A stretch of 56,165 bases of DNA from Beijerinckia sp. L45 (GTDB lineage Bacteria; Pseudomonadota; Alphaproteobacteria; Rhizobiales; Beijerinckiaceae): assembly GCF_009765775.1 (NCBI RefSeq), contig NZ_LMUU01000031.1:1-56165 (forward strand). The letters are read 5' to 3'. Below the pieces are notes generated by a model. The model saw only the letters and a program-made list of their open reading frames with translations, searched no databases and was not told where the DNA came from. This document shows, piece after piece, positions 1 to 17,241 of this stretch (positions are counted from its first letter, which is position 1; each line of letters starts with the position of its first letter). Both the position numbers and the translations under genes were made by a program.

Positions 1-448
1 TCTCGTCGTCTTCGGCGTCGCGATCGCGCTGATCGCCGCCAGTTTCTTCCTGTTCTACAAGACGCGTTTCGGCATGCAGGTTCGCGCCGTCATGCAGAAC
101 AAGGAAATCGCCTCCGCCTTCGGCATCAACGCCGATCGCGTCTACATGATCACCTTCGCGCTCGGCGCCGGCCTCGCCGGCGTTGCGGGCTCGTTGTTCG
201 GCGTTCTTGCGATCGTTCTGCCCAACATGGGTCAGAGCTACGTCGTTCAGGCGTTCCTCGTCGTGGTCGTCGGCGGCGGCACCATTCTCGGCAGCGTCGT
301 CGCATCGGGCTTGACCGGCGAACTGCAGTCCCTGTTCGCCTTCGCGACGAGCGACACGTTCGCCCGCTTTCTTTTGTACGTGCTGATCGTCGTCTTTCTC
401 CGCTTCAAGCCCAAGGGTCTGTTCGCGCCTTCGAAGGCCCGGCGATGA
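1..448 (+). CDS. Urea/short-chain-amide ABC transporter permease (UrtB/LivH type), C-terminal part
   Basis: Open reading frame enters from the left edge (frame 2) and ends at a TGA at 446-448, so only about the last 148 residues are visible. They contain the conserved permease segment with the RAV.QNKEIA..FGI cytoplasmic loop, followed by hydrophobic helices and the VVVVGGGTILGSV segment, typical of UrtB/LivH inner-membrane subunits; the C-terminal RFKPKGLF motif is the usual family ending. The stop overlaps the ATG of the next permease by 4 bases, so the two are translationally coupled. The UrtC/D/E-like character of the following genes points to urea or short amides rather than branched-chain amino acids as substrate; that is inference. 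The substrate-binding subunit must lie left of the window. Confidence 0.9.
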   Translation, partial: LVVFGVAIALIAASFFLFYKTRFGMQVRAVMQNKEIASAFGINADRVYMITFALGAGLAGVAGSLFGVLAIVLPNMGQSYVVQAFLVVVVGGGTILGSVVASGLTGELQSLFAFATSDTFARFLLYVLIVVFLRFKPKGLFAPSKARR

Positions 449-1593
449 GCGGCGTCGTTGCAAAGGCTCGTGTGGAAAAGGCTGGTATGACGAACCTCTA
501 TCATTCCAAGACCGCACAATGGGCGGTCTACGCGGTGTTCTTCGTCGCCGTCGGTGTCGTGCCCTTGATCACCAGCGACTCCTTCCTGCTGAACCAGTTT
601 GCTGTCTACGGCGTCTACGCGATGCTCGCCGTGTCGATCAGCCTCGGCTGGGGTTTTGGCGGCATTCTCAACCTCGGTCAGGGCATCGCCTTCGGGCTCG
701 CGGCCTACGGCATGGGCATGACCATGCAGATGCAGTCGCAGGATCCGGTGTCGAGCCCGATCCCGCCGTTCATGCTCAACAACAGCCTCGATCACCTGCC
801 GGCGCTGTGGGTACCGTTCTCGAACACGACCCTGGGCATTATTCTGGCGCTCGCGGTCCCCACTCTGTTCTATGTCATCTTCGGCACCCTCGTCTTCGCG
901 GCACGCGTGTCCGGTCCGTTCATCGCGATCATGACACTGGCCGTCCTCAGCGCGCTCAATACGCTGATCATCGACATGCAGCCCTATACCAACGGGGTGA
1001 ACGGCCTGACGCCGCCGTCGCCGCTGAAACTGTTCGGCGCGGACATCGACCCCTATGGCGCGACCAGCTACTGGATCGTGTTCGGATTGTTGGTGCTGAC
1101 GACCTGCGGCGCCAAGCTCCTCACGCAGAGCAAGTTCGGTCTCGTCACTCAAGCGTTGCGTGGCGATCCCGAGCGCGTACGCTTCCTCGGCTACAACGTC
1201 GCGGTCTACGAGACGGTGATCTATGCGATCTCGGGCTTCATCGCCGCCGTCGCCGGCTGCTGCTTCGTGATGCTGGTGCAATATGTTTCGCCAGCCCAGC
1301 TCGACACCAACTTTTCGATCGGCATGGTCATCTGGGTCGGCATTGGCGGGCGCTTCTCGCTGATCGGATCGATCATCGGCGCGCTGATGATCCAGGGCGG
1401 CCAGAGTTACCTCGGCGACCAGTTCCTCAATTCCTGGCTCCTGGTGCTCGGCGGCTTCTTCATCCTGGTCGTCCGTTTTCTGCCAAAGGGCCTGGCCGGA
1501 CTTCTCGAAACCGTTCTCGGCATGGTGGGCACCCGCCGCAGGTCATCGCCGCTGCCGCAGGCAGCCGGTGCTGCCGACATGCCAAGCCAGTAA
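445..1593 (+). CDS. Urea/short-chain-amide ABC transporter permease (UrtC/LivM type)
   Basis: A 382-residue integral membrane protein with about nine to ten hydrophobic segments. It shows the LivM-family permease pattern: an early YGVYAMLAVSISLGWGFGG helix, the AYGMGM loop, an extended periplasmic insert around residues 95-130, the NGVNGLT motif and the RGDPERVRFLGYN loop that contacts the ATPases. The insert and the NGVNGLT stretch resemble UrtC of urea transporters and the FmdE-type amide permease more than LivM of amino-acid systems. The ATG at 445 overlaps the previous gene by 4 bases; an internal ATG at 487 is a less likely start. The product should form the membrane channel with the upstream permease and be driven by the two ATPases downstream. 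Confidence 0.9.
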   Translation: MSGVVAKARVEKAGMTNLYHSKTAQWAVYAVFFVAVGVVPLITSDSFLLNQFAVYGVYAMLAVSISLGWGFGGILNLGQGIAFGLAAYGMGMTMQMQSQDPVSSPIPPFMLNNSLDHLPALWVPFSNTTLGIILALAVPTLFYVIFGTLVFAARVSGPFIAIMTLAVLSALNTLIIDMQPYTNGVNGLTPPSPLKLFGADIDPYGATSYWIVFGLLVLTTCGAKLLTQSKFGLVTQALRGDPERVRFLGYNVAVYETVIYAISGFIAAVAGCCFVMLVQYVSPAQLDTNFSIGMVIWVGIGGRFSLIGSIIGALMIQGGQSYLGDQFLNSWLLVLGGFFILVVRFLPKGLAGLLETVLGMVGTRRRSSPLPQAAGAADMPSQ

Positions 1594-1603
1594 GGGCGCG
1601 ACC

Positions 1604-2344
1604 ATGGGCGTTCTCGAGATCCACCACCTCAGCAAAAATTTTGGCGGCACGCAGGTCATCAATGACTTCAGCCTCAAGATCACCGAGCTCACGCTCTGCT
1701 GCCTCGTCGGCCCCAACGGTGCCGGTAAGACGACGACGATGGACCTGATCAGCGGCCGGCAGAAACCGTCGAGCGGGCAGATCGTGTTTCGCAACGACGA
1801 CATCACCGGGCTTGGCGAGCACGAGATCGCGCGCCGCGGCATCGGGCGCAAGTTTCAGGTGCCGGCGGTTTTCCGCGACCTCAGCGTGCGGCACAACCTC
1901 GAAGTCGCCTTCAGCCGCGAGACCAATCCGTTTCGCAACATGATGCATCGCAAGCCGAAAGGCCTGCGCGAAAAGCTCGACGAGGTCCTGCAACTGACCG
2001 GCCTCGGCAGCCGGCTCGAGACCGAGGCCGGCGTGCTTTCGCACGGCGAGACGCAATGGCTCGAGATCGGCATGGTGCTGATGCAGAACCCGTCGATCCT
2101 GCTGCTCGACGAGCCCGTCGCCGGCATGACCGAAAGCGAGATCGAGAACACCATCAAGATCTTCAATCGCTTGAAGAAAACCAACACGTTGATCGTCGTC
2201 GAACACGACATGGCCTTCGTCCGTGAAATCGCGGATGTGGTAACCGTCATGCATATGGGAAGCCTGTTGGCGCAGGGTACGATCGGCGAGGTCGAAGCCG
2301 ATCCCCGCGTGCGCGACGTCTATCTCGGCGATCCGGAGGACTGA
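1604..2344 (+). CDS. urtD: ABC transporter ATP-binding protein, UrtD type
   Basis: A 246-residue ATPase with Walker A GPNGAGKTT, the UrtD-like MDLISG and GIGRKFQ segments, a divergent signature (LSHGETQWLEIG instead of LSGGQ), Walker B ILLLDEPVAGM and a switch His in VVEHDM. The divergent LSHGE signature is a feature of the UrtD branch. The frame is open upstream to an ATG at 1568 inside the preceding gene, but the ATG at 1604 has an AAGG ribosome-binding site about 8 bases away and gives the usual family N-terminus (LEIHHLSKNFGG), so it is preferred. It overlaps the next ATPase gene by one base. It energises the amide/urea-type importer from the cytoplasmic face. Confidence 0.9.
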   Translation: MGVLEIHHLSKNFGGTQVINDFSLKITELTLCCLVGPNGAGKTTTMDLISGRQKPSSGQIVFRNDDITGLGEHEIARRGIGRKFQVPAVFRDLSVRHNLEVAFSRETNPFRNMMHRKPKGLREKLDEVLQLTGLGSRLETEAGVLSHGETQWLEIGMVLMQNPSILLLDEPVAGMTESEIENTIKIFNRLKKTNTLIVVEHDMAFVREIADVVTVMHMGSLLAQGTIGEVEADPRVRDVYLGDPED

Positions 2345-3045
2345 TGATGCTGCTCAGCCTGGACCAGGTCAGCTCGTATTACGGCAAGACGCCGATCCTG
2401 AAGGATCTGTCGTTCGAGCTCAAACAAGGCGACTGCCTTTGCGTGCTCGGGCGCAACGGCGTGGGCAAGACGACGCTGCTACGTACGATCATGGGTCTGA
2501 CCGATCGCATGGACGGCGCGATTCACGTCGCCGACGCTGATATCAGCAAGGCCCCGACGCACAAGCGCGCGACGCAGGGCCTTGGCTATATCCCGCAGGG
2601 GCGCCAGATCCTGCCGGCCTTTACGGTGCGCGAAAACATCTTGCTCGGGACATTCGCGCGCAACGACGGGCTGCAGGATGTTCCCGAACTCTGCCTCACG
2701 CTGTTCCCTTATCTCAGAGCGAATCTCGACAAGCGCGCCGGTCTTCTGTCCGGCGGACAGCAGCAGCAGTTGGCGATCGCCCGCGCGCTCGCCTCGGATC
2801 CGCGCATCCTTTTGCTCGACGAGCCGACCGAAGGCATCCAGCCAAACATCGTGCATGAGATCGGCCAGACCCTGCGCCGTCTCAACAAGGAATTCGGCAT
2901 CACGATGATCCTCACCGAGCAGCACATCAAGGTGGCGCGCAAGCTCGGTGATGCCTTCCTGATGATGGAGAACGGCCGCATCGTCGCGCGCGGCCCGATC
3001 GCCGAGATGACCGACGAACTCGTCACCCGACACATGACGATCTAA
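2344..3045 (+). CDS. urtE: ABC transporter ATP-binding protein, UrtE type
   Basis: A 233-residue ATPase with Walker A GRNGVGKTT, the Q-loop GYIPQGRQI, signature LSGGQQQQLAIARAL, Walker B ILLLDEPTEGIQPNIV and switch His TEQH. GRNGVGKTTLL together with DEPTEGIQP is very characteristic of UrtE, the second ATPase of urea transporters, and of FmdF in short-chain amide transporters. Two ATG codons in a row (2344 and 2347) can serve as start; the first overlaps the stop of urtD. The operon continues 19 bases later into the dimethylformamidase small subunit, which links this importer to an amide substrate. Confidence 0.9.
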   Translation: MMLLSLDQVSSYYGKTPILKDLSFELKQGDCLCVLGRNGVGKTTLLRTIMGLTDRMDGAIHVADADISKAPTHKRATQGLGYIPQGRQILPAFTVRENILLGTFARNDGLQDVPELCLTLFPYLRANLDKRAGLLSGGQQQQLAIARALASDPRILLLDEPTEGIQPNIVHEIGQTLRRLNKEFGITMILTEQHIKVARKLGDAFLMMENGRIVARGPIAEMTDELVTRHMTI

Positions 3046-3064: not shown

Positions 3065-3505
3065 ATGGAAGCCATACCTAAAAAGGGAACGCCGGAGCGC
3101 CAGCGTCTGATCGACGAGCACAAGGCCTGCATCGACTCGATGAAGGGCGTTGCCGGCTTCTCCGTTTTGAAATGCGGCGAGCCTGGCGACACGACCGTCG
3201 TCACCGGCGGCGTCCATGCCGATCCCGTCCTGAAGCGGATTCTCCTGCGCATGCGCGGCGAAAGTCCCAAGGGCAAGCTCGTCGTCATCTGCACCAAGAT
3301 CGAGAAGGAGTGGCGCATCGGCCGGCTCTCCGGCATCCGCGGCGTGCCGCCGGAATTCATCGACGACAAGATCTACGACGACGAGCAGGAAATCCAACAC
3401 GCGATCTTCCTGATCCGCCTCGACGAACTGCCCGAGACCTATGGCTTCCCGGAGGACTTCAACGAAGGCTGGAAGCGCAAGGACGACAACTGGCCGGTCA
3501 CCTGA
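3065..3505 (+). CDS. dmfA1: N,N-dimethylformamidase-like small (alpha) subunit
   Basis: A 146-residue protein preceded by a good ribosome-binding site (AGAGGAG, 3050-3056). Its second half matches the pattern I remember for the light chain of dimethylformamidase: ..EWRIGRLSGIRGVPPEF followed by an acidic stretch and the block E.QHAIFLIRLDEL, corresponding to YRIATI...LPEL...EEEAMHAVFLRRIED in the known enzyme. It is slightly longer than the roughly 132-residue characterised subunit. In the known enzyme the small subunit packs on the large one and has no catalytic residues of its own; the complex hydrolyses N,N-dimethylformamide to dimethylamine and formate. The large subunit follows 46 bases downstream. 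The true substrate here could be another N-substituted amide. Confidence 0.82.
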   Translation: MEAIPKKGTPERQRLIDEHKACIDSMKGVAGFSVLKCGEPGDTTVVTGGVHADPVLKRILLRMRGESPKGKLVVICTKIEKEWRIGRLSGIRGVPPEFIDDKIYDDEQEIQHAIFLIRLDELPETYGFPEDFNEGWKRKDDNWPVT

Positions 3506-3551: not shown

Positions 3552-5984
3552 ATGACATCCATGAGGCTGACCGGTTACGCTGACAAGTTCAGCGTGCATC
3601 CCGGCGATCCGATAAAATTCTACGTCAACTGCAATGGCCCGGCCGAGTACAAGGTCGAGATCGTGCACCTGATCAACGGCGATACCAATCCCCGTGGACC
3701 CGGCTACCTCGACAAGCCGGTCGCCGCGGACGTCAACAAGACGTATAAGGGTCGCAAACAGATCATCCACGGCGGTTCCTACGGTTATGTGCCGGACGCC
3801 AAGGCCTTCCACGTCGAAAGCTTCACGCTGCAGTGCTGGATCTGGCCGACCGCGCCGAAGACGCATCCGCGCTACTGGAAGCACGGCGCACAGGGCCTCG
3901 TCACCAAGTGGTCGAAGGATTGCGGCTACGGCCTCTTCGTCAACGAGGACGGCTGCCTCGAGTTGCGCATCAACGAGCATCGCATCACTACCGGCGTGCC
4001 GCTGCGCGATCACGCCTGGCATTTCTGCGCCGCGACCTTCGATGCCGCCACCGGTGATGTCGTCCTCTATCACGAGCCGCAGGTCGTCTATGCGCTCGAT
4101 CCCGTCATCGAGCCCGTCCGGCAGATCCTGAAGCTGGCGATCAGCCATGCGCCTGTTCCCGTCGGCATCGCCTGCTACGTCGAATCCCTTGCGCCGGACG
4201 ATGCACTCGCCGCCTCGTCGAAGCCGGCCGGCGTCGTCTTCGCCGGCAAGTACAATGGCAAGATCGACAGCCCGCGAATCTGCAAGGTCGCCCTGTCGCG
4301 CCAGGACATCGAGACGATGAAGCTCGGCGCTCAGCCCGGCCTTACCGAGCGCCGCAACAGCGGCCCGTCCGGTCGTCTGTCGGAAGTCATCGTCGCGGCG
4401 TGGAATTTCGGCAAGGGCATCGACACGATTGTCGCCAGCGATGAGGGGCCCTACCGCTTCGACGCGCAGCTGGTGAACTGCCCGAACCGCGCTATGACCG
4501 GCTATAATTGGGGCGGCACCAACTTCGACTGGAAACATGCGCCGCATGAATATGGTGCCATCAGCTTCCACGACGACGACGTCGACGATGCCCGCTGGAG
4601 CGCGGACTTCGAATGGTCAGTGCCAGAAACCGGCGTGAAAAGCCGCTTCTATGCCGCCAAGCTCACGACGTCGGAAGGCGACGAGGAGTTCATCCCGTTC
4701 TGGGTGGTTCCCCGCGTCGGGCAGGAGACGGCGAAGATCGCGGTCATGGTGCCGACGATCAGCTACATGGCCTATGCCAACGAGCATGTGGCCTGCAACG
4801 CCGGCGGCGCCGAGCTGTTCGTCTATCGCGTGCCGATCATGCAGCAGCAGAACATGTATCTCGCGGAACATCGCGAATACGGCGGCTCGATCTACGACAC
4901 GCATACGGACGGCACCGGCATTTCGATTTCGTCACGTCTGCGTCCGATCCTCTCCATCCGTCCGAAGTACGACCACTTCCTGGCGCAGGCGCCGTGGCAG
5001 TACCCAGCCGACCTCCACCTGATCTGCTGGCTGGAGACGATGGGCTACGACTACGACGTCTTCACCGACGAAGACATCACCTATGATGGTTTGGCGCGCA
5101 TCGAGAATTATAACGTCATCATCACCGGGTCGCATCCCGAACATAACAGCGGCCCGCAGCTCGATGCGCTGCACAACTACACGCAGCGTGGCGGACGCCT
5201 GATGTATATGGGCGCCGATGCCTGGTACTGGGTGCATTCCTACCACCCGGCCTATGAGAGCACGGGCCGTGGCGTCGTCACCGAAATGCGGCGCTGCGAA
5301 TCCGGCATCCGCACCTGGCGCGCCGATCCCGGTGAATATTATCACCAGGGCACCGGCGAACTCGGCGGCATGTGGCGCTTCCGGGGACGCTACCTGCACT
5401 CGGTGGCGGGCACCGGCATGTCGTCGGAGGGCTTCGACGTCTCGTCCTACTTCTCGCGGACGCCGGACAGTCTCGATCCTCGTGTGGCCTGGGCGTTCGA
5501 CGGCATCGGCTACGACGAAAAACTCGGCAATTTCGGTCTCGTCGGTGGTGGCGCTGCCGGTCTCGAACTCGACATCGTCGATACGATGCTGGGCTCGCCG
5601 CCGCACACCCTCGCCGTCGCGACGTCGGCGGGACGTCACACCGAAGCCTATCTGCTCGTCATGGAAGACTTCGGCTTCAACCAGCAGGGCCTCGATGGCA
5701 CCACGCATCCGCGCGTTCGCGCCGACATTGCCTTCCACGAGACGCCGAACGGGGGTGGCTGCTTTGCCTTCTCGTCGATCGCCTTCTGCGGCTCGTTGCC
5801 CTGGAACAACTGCGACAACAACATTTCGAAGCTCGTGAAAAATGTGCTCGATCGTTTTGCGGCAGACGGTCCTCTGCCCGCGCCGCCTGCCGACGCCATC
5901 AAGCATCGTGGCCGCGCGGACTACGATCCCACGCCGCCGGAACACCGCAGCCGCAAGGCCCGCGGCGAATTCCTGTCGGGCTGA
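3552..5984 (+). CDS. dmfA2: N,N-dimethylformamidase-like large (beta) subunit
   Basis: An 810-residue cytoplasmic protein. Residues about 80-240 form a LamG/concanavalin-like domain (ESFTLQCWIWPT, GLVTKWSKDCGYGLFV). The rest is the dimethylformamidase large-subunit C-terminal domain. Residues that in the Paracoccus enzyme form the 2-Tyr-1-carboxylate mononuclear iron site (recalled as Tyr399, Tyr440, Glu521, with His519 nearby) have plausible counterparts Tyr405 (PTISYMAY), Tyr448 (SIYDTHTDG) and His528/Glu530 (GSHPEH), at steadily increasing offsets of +6, +8 and +9. The enzyme is therefore probably active and would release formate and an amine from N-alkylformamides. The ATG at 3552 has GGAG 6 bases upstream; ATG 3561 is a weaker alternative. 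Length is about 50 residues above the known subunit. Confidence 0.88.
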   Translation: MTSMRLTGYADKFSVHPGDPIKFYVNCNGPAEYKVEIVHLINGDTNPRGPGYLDKPVAADVNKTYKGRKQIIHGGSYGYVPDAKAFHVESFTLQCWIWPTAPKTHPRYWKHGAQGLVTKWSKDCGYGLFVNEDGCLELRINEHRITTGVPLRDHAWHFCAATFDAATGDVVLYHEPQVVYALDPVIEPVRQILKLAISHAPVPVGIACYVESLAPDDALAASSKPAGVVFAGKYNGKIDSPRICKVALSRQDIETMKLGAQPGLTERRNSGPSGRLSEVIVAAWNFGKGIDTIVASDEGPYRFDAQLVNCPNRAMTGYNWGGTNFDWKHAPHEYGAISFHDDDVDDARWSADFEWSVPETGVKSRFYAAKLTTSEGDEEFIPFWVVPRVGQETAKIAVMVPTISYMAYANEHVACNAGGAELFVYRVPIMQQQNMYLAEHREYGGSIYDTHTDGTGISISSRLRPILSIRPKYDHFLAQAPWQYPADLHLICWLETMGYDYDVFTDEDITYDGLARIENYNVIITGSHPEHNSGPQLDALHNYTQRGGRLMYMGADAWYWVHSYHPAYESTGRGVVTEMRRCESGIRTWRADPGEYYHQGTGELGGMWRFRGRYLHSVAGTGMSSEGFDVSSYFSRTPDSLDPRVAWAFDGIGYDEKLGNFGLVGGGAAGLELDIVDTMLGSPPHTLAVATSAGRHTEAYLLVMEDFGFNQQGLDGTTHPRVRADIAFHETPNGGGCFAFSSIAFCGSLPWNNCDNNISKLVKNVLDRFAADGPLPAPPADAIKHRGRADYDPTPPEHRSRKARGEFLSG

Positions 5985-5996
5985 GGGATCGGACCC

Positions 5997-7037
5997 GTGC
6001 TGCACTCTTCCTTGGAGACGGGAGACGTCGCCCCCCAGCGGCCTTCCGTCTCCACGGACCGGACGATCCCGCAAGGGACCGTCCGGCTCCTTCCTCCGGC
6101 CGCGTTCCGGTCCCGCATCTTCCAGGCGGAGGAAGATGCGGCGATCTGGACGCGCGCCTGGGTCTGCGCCGGCTTCGCTGCGGAGATTCCGAACGCCGGG
6201 GATGTGCTGCCGTTCACCATCGGCACTCACGGCATTCACATCGAACGCCTCGCGGACGGATCCCTTGTCGGCCGGTTCAACAAGGCGCAGCACGGCGGCT
6301 GCCGCGCGGTCCCGCTGCAGTGCCAGACGGGCGCCAAGACGAAATGCTCGTTTACCGCCTGCGGCTACAGCCGGGACCGCCGTCCGATCGCGGCGGATGA
6401 CGTCAACCGCGAGGCGAGCCTCGACCAATATCTCGGCCTGAGGCCGGAGCGATTGCTGACGGTCCCCGTCAAGACCTGGGGCCCCCTGCTTCTGGTTCAG
6501 CTCGATCCGGAGGCCAAGACCGGTTTCGATTGGCCTTCGCCAGAGGTGGTGCTGAAAAATGCGTCCTTTGCAGAAAACGGCGCGATGGCAACGCGCTGGT
6601 TGGAACACGACGCCAATTGGAAGCATCTCGCGACATGCCTTGCCGATGGCGTGGTCGAAACCATGGGCGGAAGCCACGCCGTACGCGAAGGCGGCTCGGT
6701 TCTGCTCTATCCCAACGTCGTCATTCTTGCGGATCACACCGTTACGGCGGTAGTCATTCTTCAACCGACGGCCCTGGGGCGCACGCTGAGCCGCATCCGC
6801 TTGTTCGCTCGCGAGGCCTCGGCGCTGTGCGACGCGTCGGCGTGCGAGGCGATCCTTGCGACAATCGCAACGCGGGCCGCCGCAGCCGAAGCGCGGCAGC
6901 GCGACGCCATCGACGAGACGGCAGGCGATCCGATGCGCGCCTGGTTCGAGGCCAAAGTGTCGGCGGCCACCGACGCCTTGCATGACGAGGTTCAGACGGC
7001 CACGCTTTATCAGACACAAGACAAGGGAGGTTGGTGA
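5997..7037 (+). CDS. Degenerate Rieske-type oxygenase alpha-subunit homologue (pseudo-Rieske protein)
   Basis: A 346-residue protein starting at GTG 5997 behind GAGGGA. The N-terminal 190 residues follow the Rieske oxygenase alpha-subunit pattern closely (LPPAAFRSRIFQAEEDAAIWTRAW, then NAGDVLPFTIG), but the cluster motif is broken. The canonical C-x-H...C-x-x-H reads A97-x-H99...C117-x-x-T120, so one Cys and one His ligand are gone. In the catalytic half NWK is kept at 207-209, but the expected mononuclear-iron histidines are replaced (Val220 and about Gly225; a lone His227 is nearby). The C-terminal HDEVQTATLYQ segment is again family-like. It cannot be a normal Rieske oxygenase and is intact rather than frameshifted, so it probably has a structural or binding role. 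It begins 12 bases after the amidase gene and its stop overlaps the next start. Confidence 0.8.
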   Translation: MLHSSLETGDVAPQRPSVSTDRTIPQGTVRLLPPAAFRSRIFQAEEDAAIWTRAWVCAGFAAEIPNAGDVLPFTIGTHGIHIERLADGSLVGRFNKAQHGGCRAVPLQCQTGAKTKCSFTACGYSRDRRPIAADDVNREASLDQYLGLRPERLLTVPVKTWGPLLLVQLDPEAKTGFDWPSPEVVLKNASFAENGAMATRWLEHDANWKHLATCLADGVVETMGGSHAVREGGSVLLYPNVVILADHTVTAVVILQPTALGRTLSRIRLFAREASALCDASACEAILATIATRAAAAEARQRDAIDETAGDPMRAWFEAKVSAATDALHDEVQTATLYQTQDKGGW

Positions 7038-7726
7038 TGCCACGCGCTGTCCAGACGGCCACGGAAGATCGGTTGCGGGAGGCGGTGGCGGCCTTCGGGC
7101 GCGCCGACTACGACACGGCGCTTCCCATCTTTGAGCACGCCGCGGAATCCGGCAATCCTGATGCCCAGGCCTGGCTCGGCTCCTTCTATGCCAACGGCAC
7201 CGGGGTCGTGCCCTCGCTGGCGACGGCTTTCGCCTGGTACAGCAAGGCGGCCGAGCAAGGCCACGTACAGGCTGCGACCAACGTCGGCGCCATGCTCTCG
7301 ATGGGGCAGGGCGTGCCGCAGGACCGCACGGCCGGCGTCGCCTGGCTGCAGAAAGCAGCGGATGCCGGCGATGCGATGGCGCGTTACAATCTTGCGACGC
7401 TGTATGCCAAGGGCGGCGAGATCCCGCAGGACAATGCGCGCGCCGCAGAGCTCTACCGGCTTGCCGCGGAAACCGGACACTTCCCGTCTCAGGCGCGCCT
7501 CGGCCACCTCTACGCCAACGGCATCGGCGTCGCGAAGGACCGTGTCTCCGCCTTTGCCTGGCTGTCGCTTGCGGCCGGTCATGGCGTCGGCACGGCACTC
7601 AATGCGCTGGAGGGCCTGATCGCGCAAATGTCGGCGGAAGAGAAAGGCGCCGGTCAGGCGATGGCGCAGCGCTGGCGTGGTCGGTCCGGGCCAGGGCATG
7701 CCACGATCAACCCCGTGCCGGCCTGA
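7037..7726 (+). CDS. Sel1-repeat protein
   Basis: A 229-residue protein made of four to five Sel1-like alpha-helical repeats, each with the pattern A...YxxAAxxGxxxAQxxLGxxYxxGxGVxxD (for example AFAWYSKAAEQGHVQAATNVGAMLSMGQGV and the AELYRLAAETGHFPSQARLGHLYANGIGV unit, shown here as separate motifs). No signal peptide, so cytoplasmic. Sel1 arrays are protein-protein interaction scaffolds. The start ATG at 7037 overlaps the TGA of the pseudo-Rieske gene (TGATG) and has GGGAGG 6 bases upstream; TTG 7031 and GTG 7034 are in frame but poorer. Translational coupling suggests the product is needed in fixed ratio with the pseudo-Rieske protein, perhaps as its partner. Confidence 0.85.
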   Translation: MPRAVQTATEDRLREAVAAFGRADYDTALPIFEHAAESGNPDAQAWLGSFYANGTGVVPSLATAFAWYSKAAEQGHVQAATNVGAMLSMGQGVPQDRTAGVAWLQKAADAGDAMARYNLATLYAKGGEIPQDNARAAELYRLAAETGHFPSQARLGHLYANGIGVAKDRVSAFAWLSLAAGHGVGTALNALEGLIAQMSAEEKGAGQAMAQRWRGRSGPGHATINPVPA

Positions 7727-7730
7727 GCCA

Positions 7731-8039
7731 ATGGCTTACAGCGTCCAGCAAATCAAATTCGAACTGATCAGCTACGTCAAGGAGTTCGGCGCCGATTTCA
7801 CGGAGTGGTCGATCGGCCTCGCCGCTGACGCGCCGAAGGCGCTGTTCGAAATCAACAAGGTCGATGACGTCAACGACATGTGGCTGTGGAAGCCCGCCGT
7901 CACCAATGCCGCCGCCGTGATGATCTGCAACTGGATGACGGATCGGCAGAAGGCCCGCGCCGTTGCCGGCGACACCGACGGCGGGTCCTGCGTGTTCATG
8001 TTCAAGCGTCATCCCGCGGATCAGCCATCGGTAGCGTGA
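7731..8039 (+). CDS. Small protein of unknown function, last gene of the amidase operon
   Basis: A 102-residue soluble protein starting at ATG 7731, only 4 bases after the Sel1 gene. I do not recognise the family. It is acidic to neutral, has one hydrophobic stretch (NAAAVMICNWM, about residues 60-70) too short for a confident membrane helix, and is rich in Trp and Asp near the middle (DDVNDMWLWKP). An upstream in-frame ATG at 7677 lies inside the Sel1 gene and is unlikely to be used. Close spacing and normal codon use make it a real gene, probably working with the pseudo-Rieske and Sel1 proteins. Confidence 0.7.
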   Translation: MAYSVQQIKFELISYVKEFGADFTEWSIGLAADAPKALFEINKVDDVNDMWLWKPAVTNAAAVMICNWMTDRQKARAVAGDTDGGSCVFMFKRHPADQPSVA

Positions 8040-11289: not shown

Positions 11290-12315
<1,026 letters not shown>

Positions 12316-16203: not shown

Positions 16204-16296
16204 AGAGGCAGCCGGATGCTCTGATGCCAAAGCACGTCACGAGTGCTTCGGCGTGTCGGGTGAGGGTGACCAACGCATTGCCGCAAGGATTATTTG

Positions 16297-17241
16297 ATGG
16301 CCCACCATCGTCTCGACGCCGGCCCTGATACAGTCCATTGGGGCTACCTCGACGCGGCTCTCCCGCCGGTCCTGGCGATCGATTCCGGCGACACCGTCTT
16401 CGTGACGACGGCGAGCGGAAGCCCTGACCAGCTACCGACAGAGGACGGCTTCTCGGTTCGCGACGGACTGCGGGCGATCCACGCCACCGTCGAGCAGCGC
16501 CTGGGGCCGCACATCCTCAACGGCCCCATCTTCGTTCGCGGCGCGGAGCCAGGTGACGCTCTCCGCGTGACGATCGTGGATGTTTCGCTCGCCGACGACT
16601 GGGGCTACAATCTTATCGCGCCGGACAAGGGTCTGCTGCCGGACGATTTTCCGGTCGGCGGCGTGATCCACCTCGGGATCGATCGGATTAACGGCCGGAT
16701 CGTTACGCCCTGGGGCATCACCATCCCCGCGCGCCCGTTCTTCGGGGTCATCGGGACGGCGCCCGCACCCGAAGAAGGCGCGGTCACATCTGTCGTGCCC
16801 GGCTCCTTCGGCGGCAACATCGACAACAAGGAGCTGACGGCGGGATCGGTGTTGTATCTGCCGGTCGCCACGCCCGGCGGTCTCCTCTCGGTCGGCGACG
16901 GACACGCCGCTCAAGGGGACGGCGAGGTCTGCCTGACCGCCGTGGAAACGGGGCTCGCCGGCACGCTGCAGATCGATCTCCTAAAGGGCGCAGACCTATC
17001 CGCGCCCTATGCCGAGACCAAGACGCATCTGATTGCGATGGCGTTCGACGACGATTTCGACGAAGCCGTCCGGACCGGGGTGCGCCGCATGATCGTCCTG
17101 ATCTGCAACGCCAGCACATTGTCCCCCGATCAAGCGTATCGGCTCTGCAGCATCGCCGCCGATGTGAGGATCACGCAGGTGGTCAATCGGAAACGCGGCG
17201 TTCATGTCATGCTGCCTCTCGAGCTGTTACGAAACGCATAA
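16297..17241 (+). CDS. Acetamidase/formamidase family protein
   Basis: A 314-residue cytoplasmic enzyme of the FmdA/AmdA family. Recognisable elements are HWGYLDAALPPVLAIDSGD near the start, GPIFVRGAEPGDALRV (about residues 75-90), PGSFGGNIDNKELTAGS and LYLPVATPGGLLSVGDGHAAQGDGEV (both family hallmarks, shown as motifs). Such enzymes hydrolyse short amides such as formamide or acetamide to ammonia and the acid. ATG 16297 has AAGGA 7 bases upstream; TTG 16294 is in frame but less likely. Length is typical of the shorter bacterial branch. Its presence close to the dimethylformamidase-like operon supports a short-amide utilisation theme. Confidence 0.88.
   Translation: MAHHRLDAGPDTVHWGYLDAALPPVLAIDSGDTVFVTTASGSPDQLPTEDGFSVRDGLRAIHATVEQRLGPHILNGPIFVRGAEPGDALRVTIVDVSLADDWGYNLIAPDKGLLPDDFPVGGVIHLGIDRINGRIVTPWGITIPARPFFGVIGTAPAPEEGAVTSVVPGSFGGNIDNKELTAGSVLYLPVATPGGLLSVGDGHAAQGDGEVCLTAVETGLAGTLQIDLLKGADLSAPYAETKTHLIAMAFDDDFDEAVRTGVRRMIVLICNASTLSPDQAYRLCSIAADVRITQVVNRKRGVHVMLPLELLRNA

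Follow-up and report, generated by a model that had tools for sequence, protein, structure and literature searches.

Downstream of a gene pair resembling N,N-dimethylformamidase (DMFase), the genome of Beijerinckia sp. L45 carries an intact reading frame that resembles a Rieske oxygenase alpha subunit and lacks residues by which such enzymes hold iron. The locus raises the question of what a former oxygenase does beside a hydrolase. We addressed this question in a 56,165-nucleotide stretch of DNA (contig NZ_LMUU01000031.1, forward strand; here called the window), in which the frame, designated pR, belongs to a cassette of five genes:

3065..3505 (+), dmfA1: DMFase-like small subunit; weak match to 6lvb_B (E 0.0067)
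3552..5984 (+), dmfA2: large subunit; inferred start at ATG 3552; Pfam DMFA2_C (E 1.1e-84)
5997..7037 (+), pR: Rieske-oxygenase-fold protein with a putatively rebuilt ligand set
7037..7726 (+), sel1: Sel1-repeat protein; Pfam Sel1 (E 6.7e-35); its start overlaps the pR stop
7731..8039 (+), sm: cassette-conserved protein of ~102 aa with no Pfam or NCBIfam match

The pR frame (5997-7037) starts with a GTG 12 bases after the dmfA2 stop, with GAGGG 9 bases 5' of the GTG (read by eye). It encodes 346 aa with 0 internal stops, and its own stop overlaps the sel1 ATG at 7037 (TGATG). An earlier sequence-only reading had described an uninterrupted frame set tightly between an amidase gene and a Sel1 gene, and both descriptions are borne out. 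Between 2900 and 8300, no promoter-like sites were found, and terminator-like sites numbered 4, compared with a shuffle mean of 2.9 (sd 1.8). We found no description of pR among the papers listed by one open-access library without preprints.

By sequence alone, the likeness of pR to Rieske oxygenases is weak. The window protein scored below the gathering cut-off of Pfam Ring_hydroxyl_A (PF00848; E 0.098, 13 bits against 24.9), had no match to PF00355 in the Pfam scan, and matched NCBIfam GbcA at E 1.8e-9, far under the cut-off. Among 70 pR members scanned against Pfam at E <= 0.01, PF00848 matched 24 and PF00355 matched 2. When modeled using AlphaFold2 (window protein and 69 homologues; pLDDT 82, pTM 0.86), pR is predicted to have the two-domain fold of an alpha subunit, as judged by comparison with VIA. 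Two solved structures tied as its best matches, terephthalate dioxygenase 7vju_E (VIA Z 23.6, rmsd 3.1, 278 residues) and carnitine monooxygenase CntA 6y8s (Z 23.3, rmsd 3.2, 277 residues). With a Foldseek E of 3.3e-12, the model thus supports the whole-length likeness to Rieske alpha subunits that had been noticed by eye. The motif loops are modeled at lower confidence, averaging 80, 67, 70, and 81 over successive blocks of ten residues between positions 91 and 130.

The ligand set of Rieske clusters is textbook knowledge, and we compared pR with true Rieske proteins at these positions. The comparators (n = 17) were taken from the fetched loci and aligned with 15 of 72 pR rows; L013 and L020, which gave no blast hit, and L006, with a frame of >700 aa, were left out, and the Rieske protein of L137 stood outside the alignment, its canonical motif being read separately. 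Columns 97, 99, 117, and 120 hold C/H/C/H in 17/17 true Rieske proteins and A/H/C/T in the window pR. The cluster motif therefore reads as the sequence-only reading had it, FNK-A97-Q-H99 ... K-C117-S-F-T120, and its Val/Gly at the mononuclear iron site is likewise confirmed: both His of NWK-x(10)-H-x4-H are replaced, by V220 and G225 (numbering by eye). No family-invariant His occurs in this segment among the 72 pR members. An orthologue with the full C-x-H / C-x2-H motif, which would speak against that reading, was looked for, and 0/72 members are canonical. The segments concerned are as follows:

6228..6239 (+): codons 78 through 81, with H78 and H81 invariant (72/72 members)
6285..6362 (+): rebuilt motif A97-x-H99-x2-C102-x6-C109-x7-C117-x2-T120-x-C122, with H99, C102, C109, C117, and C122 in 72/72 members
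6615..6671 (+): remains of the mononuclear-iron segment, with NWK kept and its two His changed to V220 and G225

Set beside the Rieske oxygenases TPADO, CntA, and GbcA, pR is alike in its fold over residues 14-329 and in its NWK motif, and its H99 and C117 align with a His and a Cys ligand, respectively. It is unlike them in lacking the first Cys ligand, the second His ligand, and both mononuclear-iron His, and in having new invariant residues at C102, C109, C122, H78, and H81. True Rieske proteins have Cys at column 109 in 2/17 cases and at columns 102 and 122 in 0/17. Since pR departs from both ligand patterns yet shares the fold, we regard it as a variant of the Rieske-oxygenase fold and not as a member of the enzyme family.

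In all 72 aligned members, the invariant Cys residues are exactly 102, 109, 117, and 122, and the invariant His residues exactly 78, 81, and 99; the remaining Cys and His of the window protein are all variable. Five of these seven residues sit in the old cluster loops, where G100, G101, R103, P106, Q108, and G112 are also invariant. The 72 members share 31 invariant positions, 5 of which lie past residue 200. The former catalytic domain retains W208, K209, P239, Q256, and R266 in every member. The view of pR as an inactivated oxygenase thus stands as regards the lost ligands and falls short as regards simple loss, because a new invariant His/Cys set occupies the same loops.

Whether the A97 and T120 changes are themselves conserved in orthologues had been posed as a check on the sequence-only reading. 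They were identical, together with H99, C117, C102, C109, and C122, in 71/71 rows of the first homologue alignment. The 72-row set was obtained by dropping one duplicate (L002, of L086) and adding the pR of genome G345, found through DmfA2, and that of plasmid pAMI5 from Paracoccus aminophilus JCM 7686. The former has Tyr and Leu at 94 and 96 and keeps the rest of the motif. The latter has Val97 and Leu120, so these are not conserved residues, and it keeps H99, C102, C109, C117, and C122. The old ligand positions drift, and a different Cys/His set is fixed in pR. With 97 and 120 free to change and the new set retained, the alignment suggests a rebuilt putative metal site rather than a dead domain.

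The dN/dS of pR was 0.10-0.28 in 13/13 close pairs, two of them separated by very little divergence (dS 0.018). The range for dmfA2 was 0.02-0.11, and pR evolves faster. Frame breaks or a dN/dS near 1 had been named as marks of a pseudogene, and neither was seen. Collectively, these data support the view that pR descends from a Rieske oxygenase, is no longer an oxygenase, is conserved under purifying selection, and is fixed beside a DMFase-like enzyme.

The homologues came mainly from a search of species-representative genomes, which yielded 69 pR loci with 38-56% identity in the best segment. Many hosts are methylotrophs, such as Methylocella, Methylobacterium, Methylorubrum, Methylopila, Hyphomicrobium, Ancylobacter, and Methyloversatilis; others are Rhodopseudomonas, Bradyrhizobium, Mesorhizobium, and metagenome-assembled alpha- and gammaproteobacteria. 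This set is biased, because two of the six search peptides (FNKAQHGG and TKCSFTAC) came from the motif. The test was repeated with DmfA2-anchored searches, a profile search of the phylum, and a plasmid search. Eight of the ten DmfA2-anchored genomes are apparently among the 69 loci, and G345 and G551 seem new; the motif therefore draws its fully independent support mainly from G345, G551, and pAMI5. The pR profile found pR-type matches in 2/398 genomes of the phylum (the window's own at 390 bits, the other at 472), and the next three matches, at 76-87 bits, carry canonical Rieske ligands. Among plasmids at E <= 1e-20, pR matched one record, pAMI5, and DmfA2 matched 66.

The pAMI5 copy was found by whole-protein tblastn, at a locus running from JCM7686_RS20365 to RS23675. 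The order dmfA1-dmfA2-pR-sm is the same as in the window. In contrast to the window, sel1 was not found in a 30-kb stretch, a gene for an AmiS/UreI-family transporter follows, and a urtA-like gene is encoded upstream on the opposite strand, with urtC, D, and E not annotated there. This pR (L170 16574-17554) is annotated as 'biphenyl 2,3-dioxygenase', though the Rieske ligands are missing. The terms urea and urease are absent from the main text of PMC4543880.

The linkage of pR to its neighbors is nearly complete among the 69 loci. All five cassette genes occur in 66/69, and the remaining 3/69 are without one outer gene at a contig end, the missing gene being dmfA1 at L043 and L050 and sm at L045. 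Of the complete loci, 51 are arranged dmfA1-dmfA2-pR-sel1-sm and 15 dmfA1-dmfA2-pR-sm-sel1; sel1 comes directly after pR in 53/69 and after sm in 16/69. A role of the Sel1 protein as the essential partner of pR is weakened by this variable order and by the 30-kb pAMI5 stretch in which sel1 was not found. There, sm is kept. The sm protein gave only weak RidA/YjgF-like and DegV-like fold matches (best Foldseek E 0.083; VIA Z 4.0, rmsd 3.8, 70 residues).

Searches that started from DmfA2 led back to pR. Clade-type DmfA2 (74-75% identical) is present in 4 of 385 class genomes besides the window genome, and pR adjoins it in 4/4. In a family sample (148 genomes of the family of a Methylobacterium), 6/6 clade-type DmfA2 (81-90%) are accompanied by a motif-bearing pR. 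All 10 cassette-clade DmfA2 reached through DmfA2 itself are thus adjoined by pR. No pR was found in 16 longer regions around non-clade DmfA2 (up to 47% identity; a partial fragment 54%), nor in the non-clade loci L095-L119 and L146-L159 (1.5 kb a side), where L105, which shares its contig with L137, gave one weak match of 18 bits. In a tree of 42 DmfA2, which included 25 of 70 cassette DmfA2, those of pAMI5 and G345, and those of 15/16 non-clade regions (without L128), the 27 cassette members fell on one side of a branch with support of 100/100. The pAMI5 protein is drawn deepest, on a long branch.

Near non-clade dmfA2, the regions L130, L136, and L137 (3/16) encode Rieske proteins with canonical ligands, a possible source of pR. 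The window genome has a second, non-cassette DmfA2 (G000 C257 9848-12148, 39% identity) with no pR beside it (L139).

The window DmfA2 aligned almost end-to-end with 6lvb_A (E 3e-155), with Tyr, Tyr, and Glu at Y399, Y440, and E521. These positions are the 2 Tyr and 1 Glu that bind iron in 6lvb according to PMC7686228, so the iron ligands of DMFase are present in the window protein. The cassette DmfA2 is therefore like that of the Paracoccus DmfA1-DmfA2 enzyme (6lvb; pAMI2) in its iron ligands and unlike it in being grouped apart from the 15 non-cassette proteins tested and in having pR and sm adjoining. The clade DmfA1 also has an additional segment bearing C22 and C37 (present in at least 67/68 rows) and a C-terminal extension. 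When 12 non-clade DmfA1 were compared with 10 from the clade, the segment was absent in nine of the non-clade proteins and shorter in three; these 12 have a Cys in the C22 column in one case and at C37 in none. The clade-specific insert and tail could form a contact surface for the added proteins.

Degradation of DMF itself is a disfavored role. According to PMC4543880, growth of P. aminophilus on DMF depends on a DMFase encoded by another plasmid, pAMI2, and tblastn of the plasmids gave no pR match on pAMI2. Together these make a DMF role unlikely, and the split of DmfA2 in the tree points the same way.

The genes around the cassette suggest other substrates. Upstream in the window, at 445..3045 (+), lies the end of a urea-type ABC transporter operon, and an apparent preceding permease gene is visible by eye at the contig start:

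445-1593 (+), urtC: assigned via the homologue in L033, 320 bits (NCBIfam cut-off 296.2)
1568-2344 (+), urtD: NCBIfam 312.2 bits (cut-off 304.1)
2344-3045 (+), urtE: NCBIfam 295.9 bits (cut-off 285.8)

Within the fetched 8-kb flanks of the 69 loci, which are cut and in which strand and distance vary, urtE was found in 54, urtC in 49, urtD in 48, and a urtA-like gene in 47. A ureC gene lies within the flank in 19/69 loci, and an aliphatic-amidase-like gene (that of L022; NCBIfam PRK13286) in the fetched stretch of 4/69. The company of the cassette is that of urea or short amides.

A search with Methylocella tundrae ureC in 11 cassette genomes found a copy 74-95% identical in 10, and each of these genomes has one or two further ureC of ordinary type (54-58%). 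A Hyphomicrobium genome (G444) was the one of the 11 with no ureC of this second clade. The two ureC of the window genome (G000 C99, C177) are 91% and 57% identical to that of M. tundrae, and the second-clade ureC of G345 is only 62% identical. At E <= 1e-230, the second urease clade was present in 5/5 clade-DmfA2 genomes of the class sample and in 4/380 others. Read by eye, one second-clade urease keeps the usual urease metal-site motifs. This clade may act on substituted ureas, and its link to the cassette may reflect shared ancestry.

Elsewhere in the window are genes for a CobW-family GTPase at 11290-12315 (-) and a short FmdA-like protein at 16294-17241 (+; 75.8 bits against a cut-off of 500). 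Neighbor cluster representatives from L061, L027, and L065 had no family match, in a clustering of neighbor proteins that contains many antisense clusters.

We propose, with a probability of roughly 0.5, that pR is a non-oxygenase protein of the Rieske fold that serves as a metal-binding subunit or maturation partner of a urea- or amide-linked, DMFase-like hydrolase; the proposal draws on alignments, gene order, and predicted structure. The pR lineage began as a Rieske oxygenase alpha subunit and ceased to be an oxygenase, with the fold kept in the model and the catalytic iron site gone. Its gene is passed on together with dmfA1-dmfA2 and sm, in most cases also with sel1, and mostly behind a urea-type ABC transporter. 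The new Cys and His residues would bind metal, either as a Cys/His Fe-S cluster or as zinc. The protein may be a bound subunit of the DMFase-like iron hydrolase or its maturation partner, in which case it would load iron or protect the Tyr2-Glu iron site. The substrate of the hydrolase would be a urea- or amide-type compound. More tentatively, a Cys4/His Fe-S cluster could occupy the old Rieske loops and pR could physically complete the urea-linked iron hydrolase. The re-use of an oxygenase scaffold as a cofactor-bearing hydrolase subunit is part of this Fe-S reading and is put forward just as tentatively. NirD offers a partial precedent. By the usual description it is a Rieske-fold subunit without ligands beside a larger enzyme, as pR may be, and it differs from pR in consisting of the Rieske domain only and, to our knowledge, in having no replacement Cys set.

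The main rival is that pR is a purely structural subunit, with a metal-free Rieske domain whose cysteines form disulfides or an interface. The original ligands are indeed lost, the clade-specific DmfA1 insert and tail suggest extra contacts, and no ferredoxin or reductase was found among the small selection of neighbor proteins scanned. However, disulfides are unusual in the cytoplasm, and 4 Cys and 3 His are strictly invariant, five of them in the old loops with G100, G101, R103, P106, Q108, and G112, a pattern more suggestive of a metal site. We consider a metal-free pR possible and, on balance, improbable. Another reading, one form of the sequence-only proposal, casts pR as a sensor of redox state or substrate by which the hydrolase is switched; it would fit the fixed linkage of pR to the enzyme and a rebuilt Cys/His site that could sense oxygen or redox state. 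Nevertheless, no signaling domain was matched in Pfam or NCBIfam, the old catalytic domain is poorly conserved, with 5 of the 31 invariant positions beyond residue 200, and nothing indicates a ligand. A sensor is thus unlikely.

Could pR still catalyze a reaction or carry electrons through a new cluster, so that the DmfA complex is not a plain hydrolase? The Rieske oxygenase fold is kept, and W208, K209, P239, Q256, and R266 remain invariant in the old catalytic domain. Yet both mononuclear-iron His are gone, and the five-gene cassette is without a reductase or ferredoxin gene, which makes this reading very unlikely. The idea of a decaying Rieske oxygenase pseudogene carried along by the operon, to which two iron sites without their ligands and evolution faster than that of dmfA2 might point, was rejected as barely credible in view of the 31 invariant positions in 72 members (taken as open frames) and a dN/dS of 0.10-0.28 in every one of the 13 pairs, including the two that differ very little (dS 0.018).

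A conserved lineage that has exchanged its Rieske ligands for another set in those loops would illustrate the re-tooling of a redox domain. The DMFase-like iron hydrolase, the urea-type transporter, and the second urease clade point to a urea- or amide-related pathway, for which we found no description in the open-access library searched, which is without preprints. Since the family has been annotated as a dioxygenase at least once, such annotation would mislead the reconstruction of pathways in methylotrophs.
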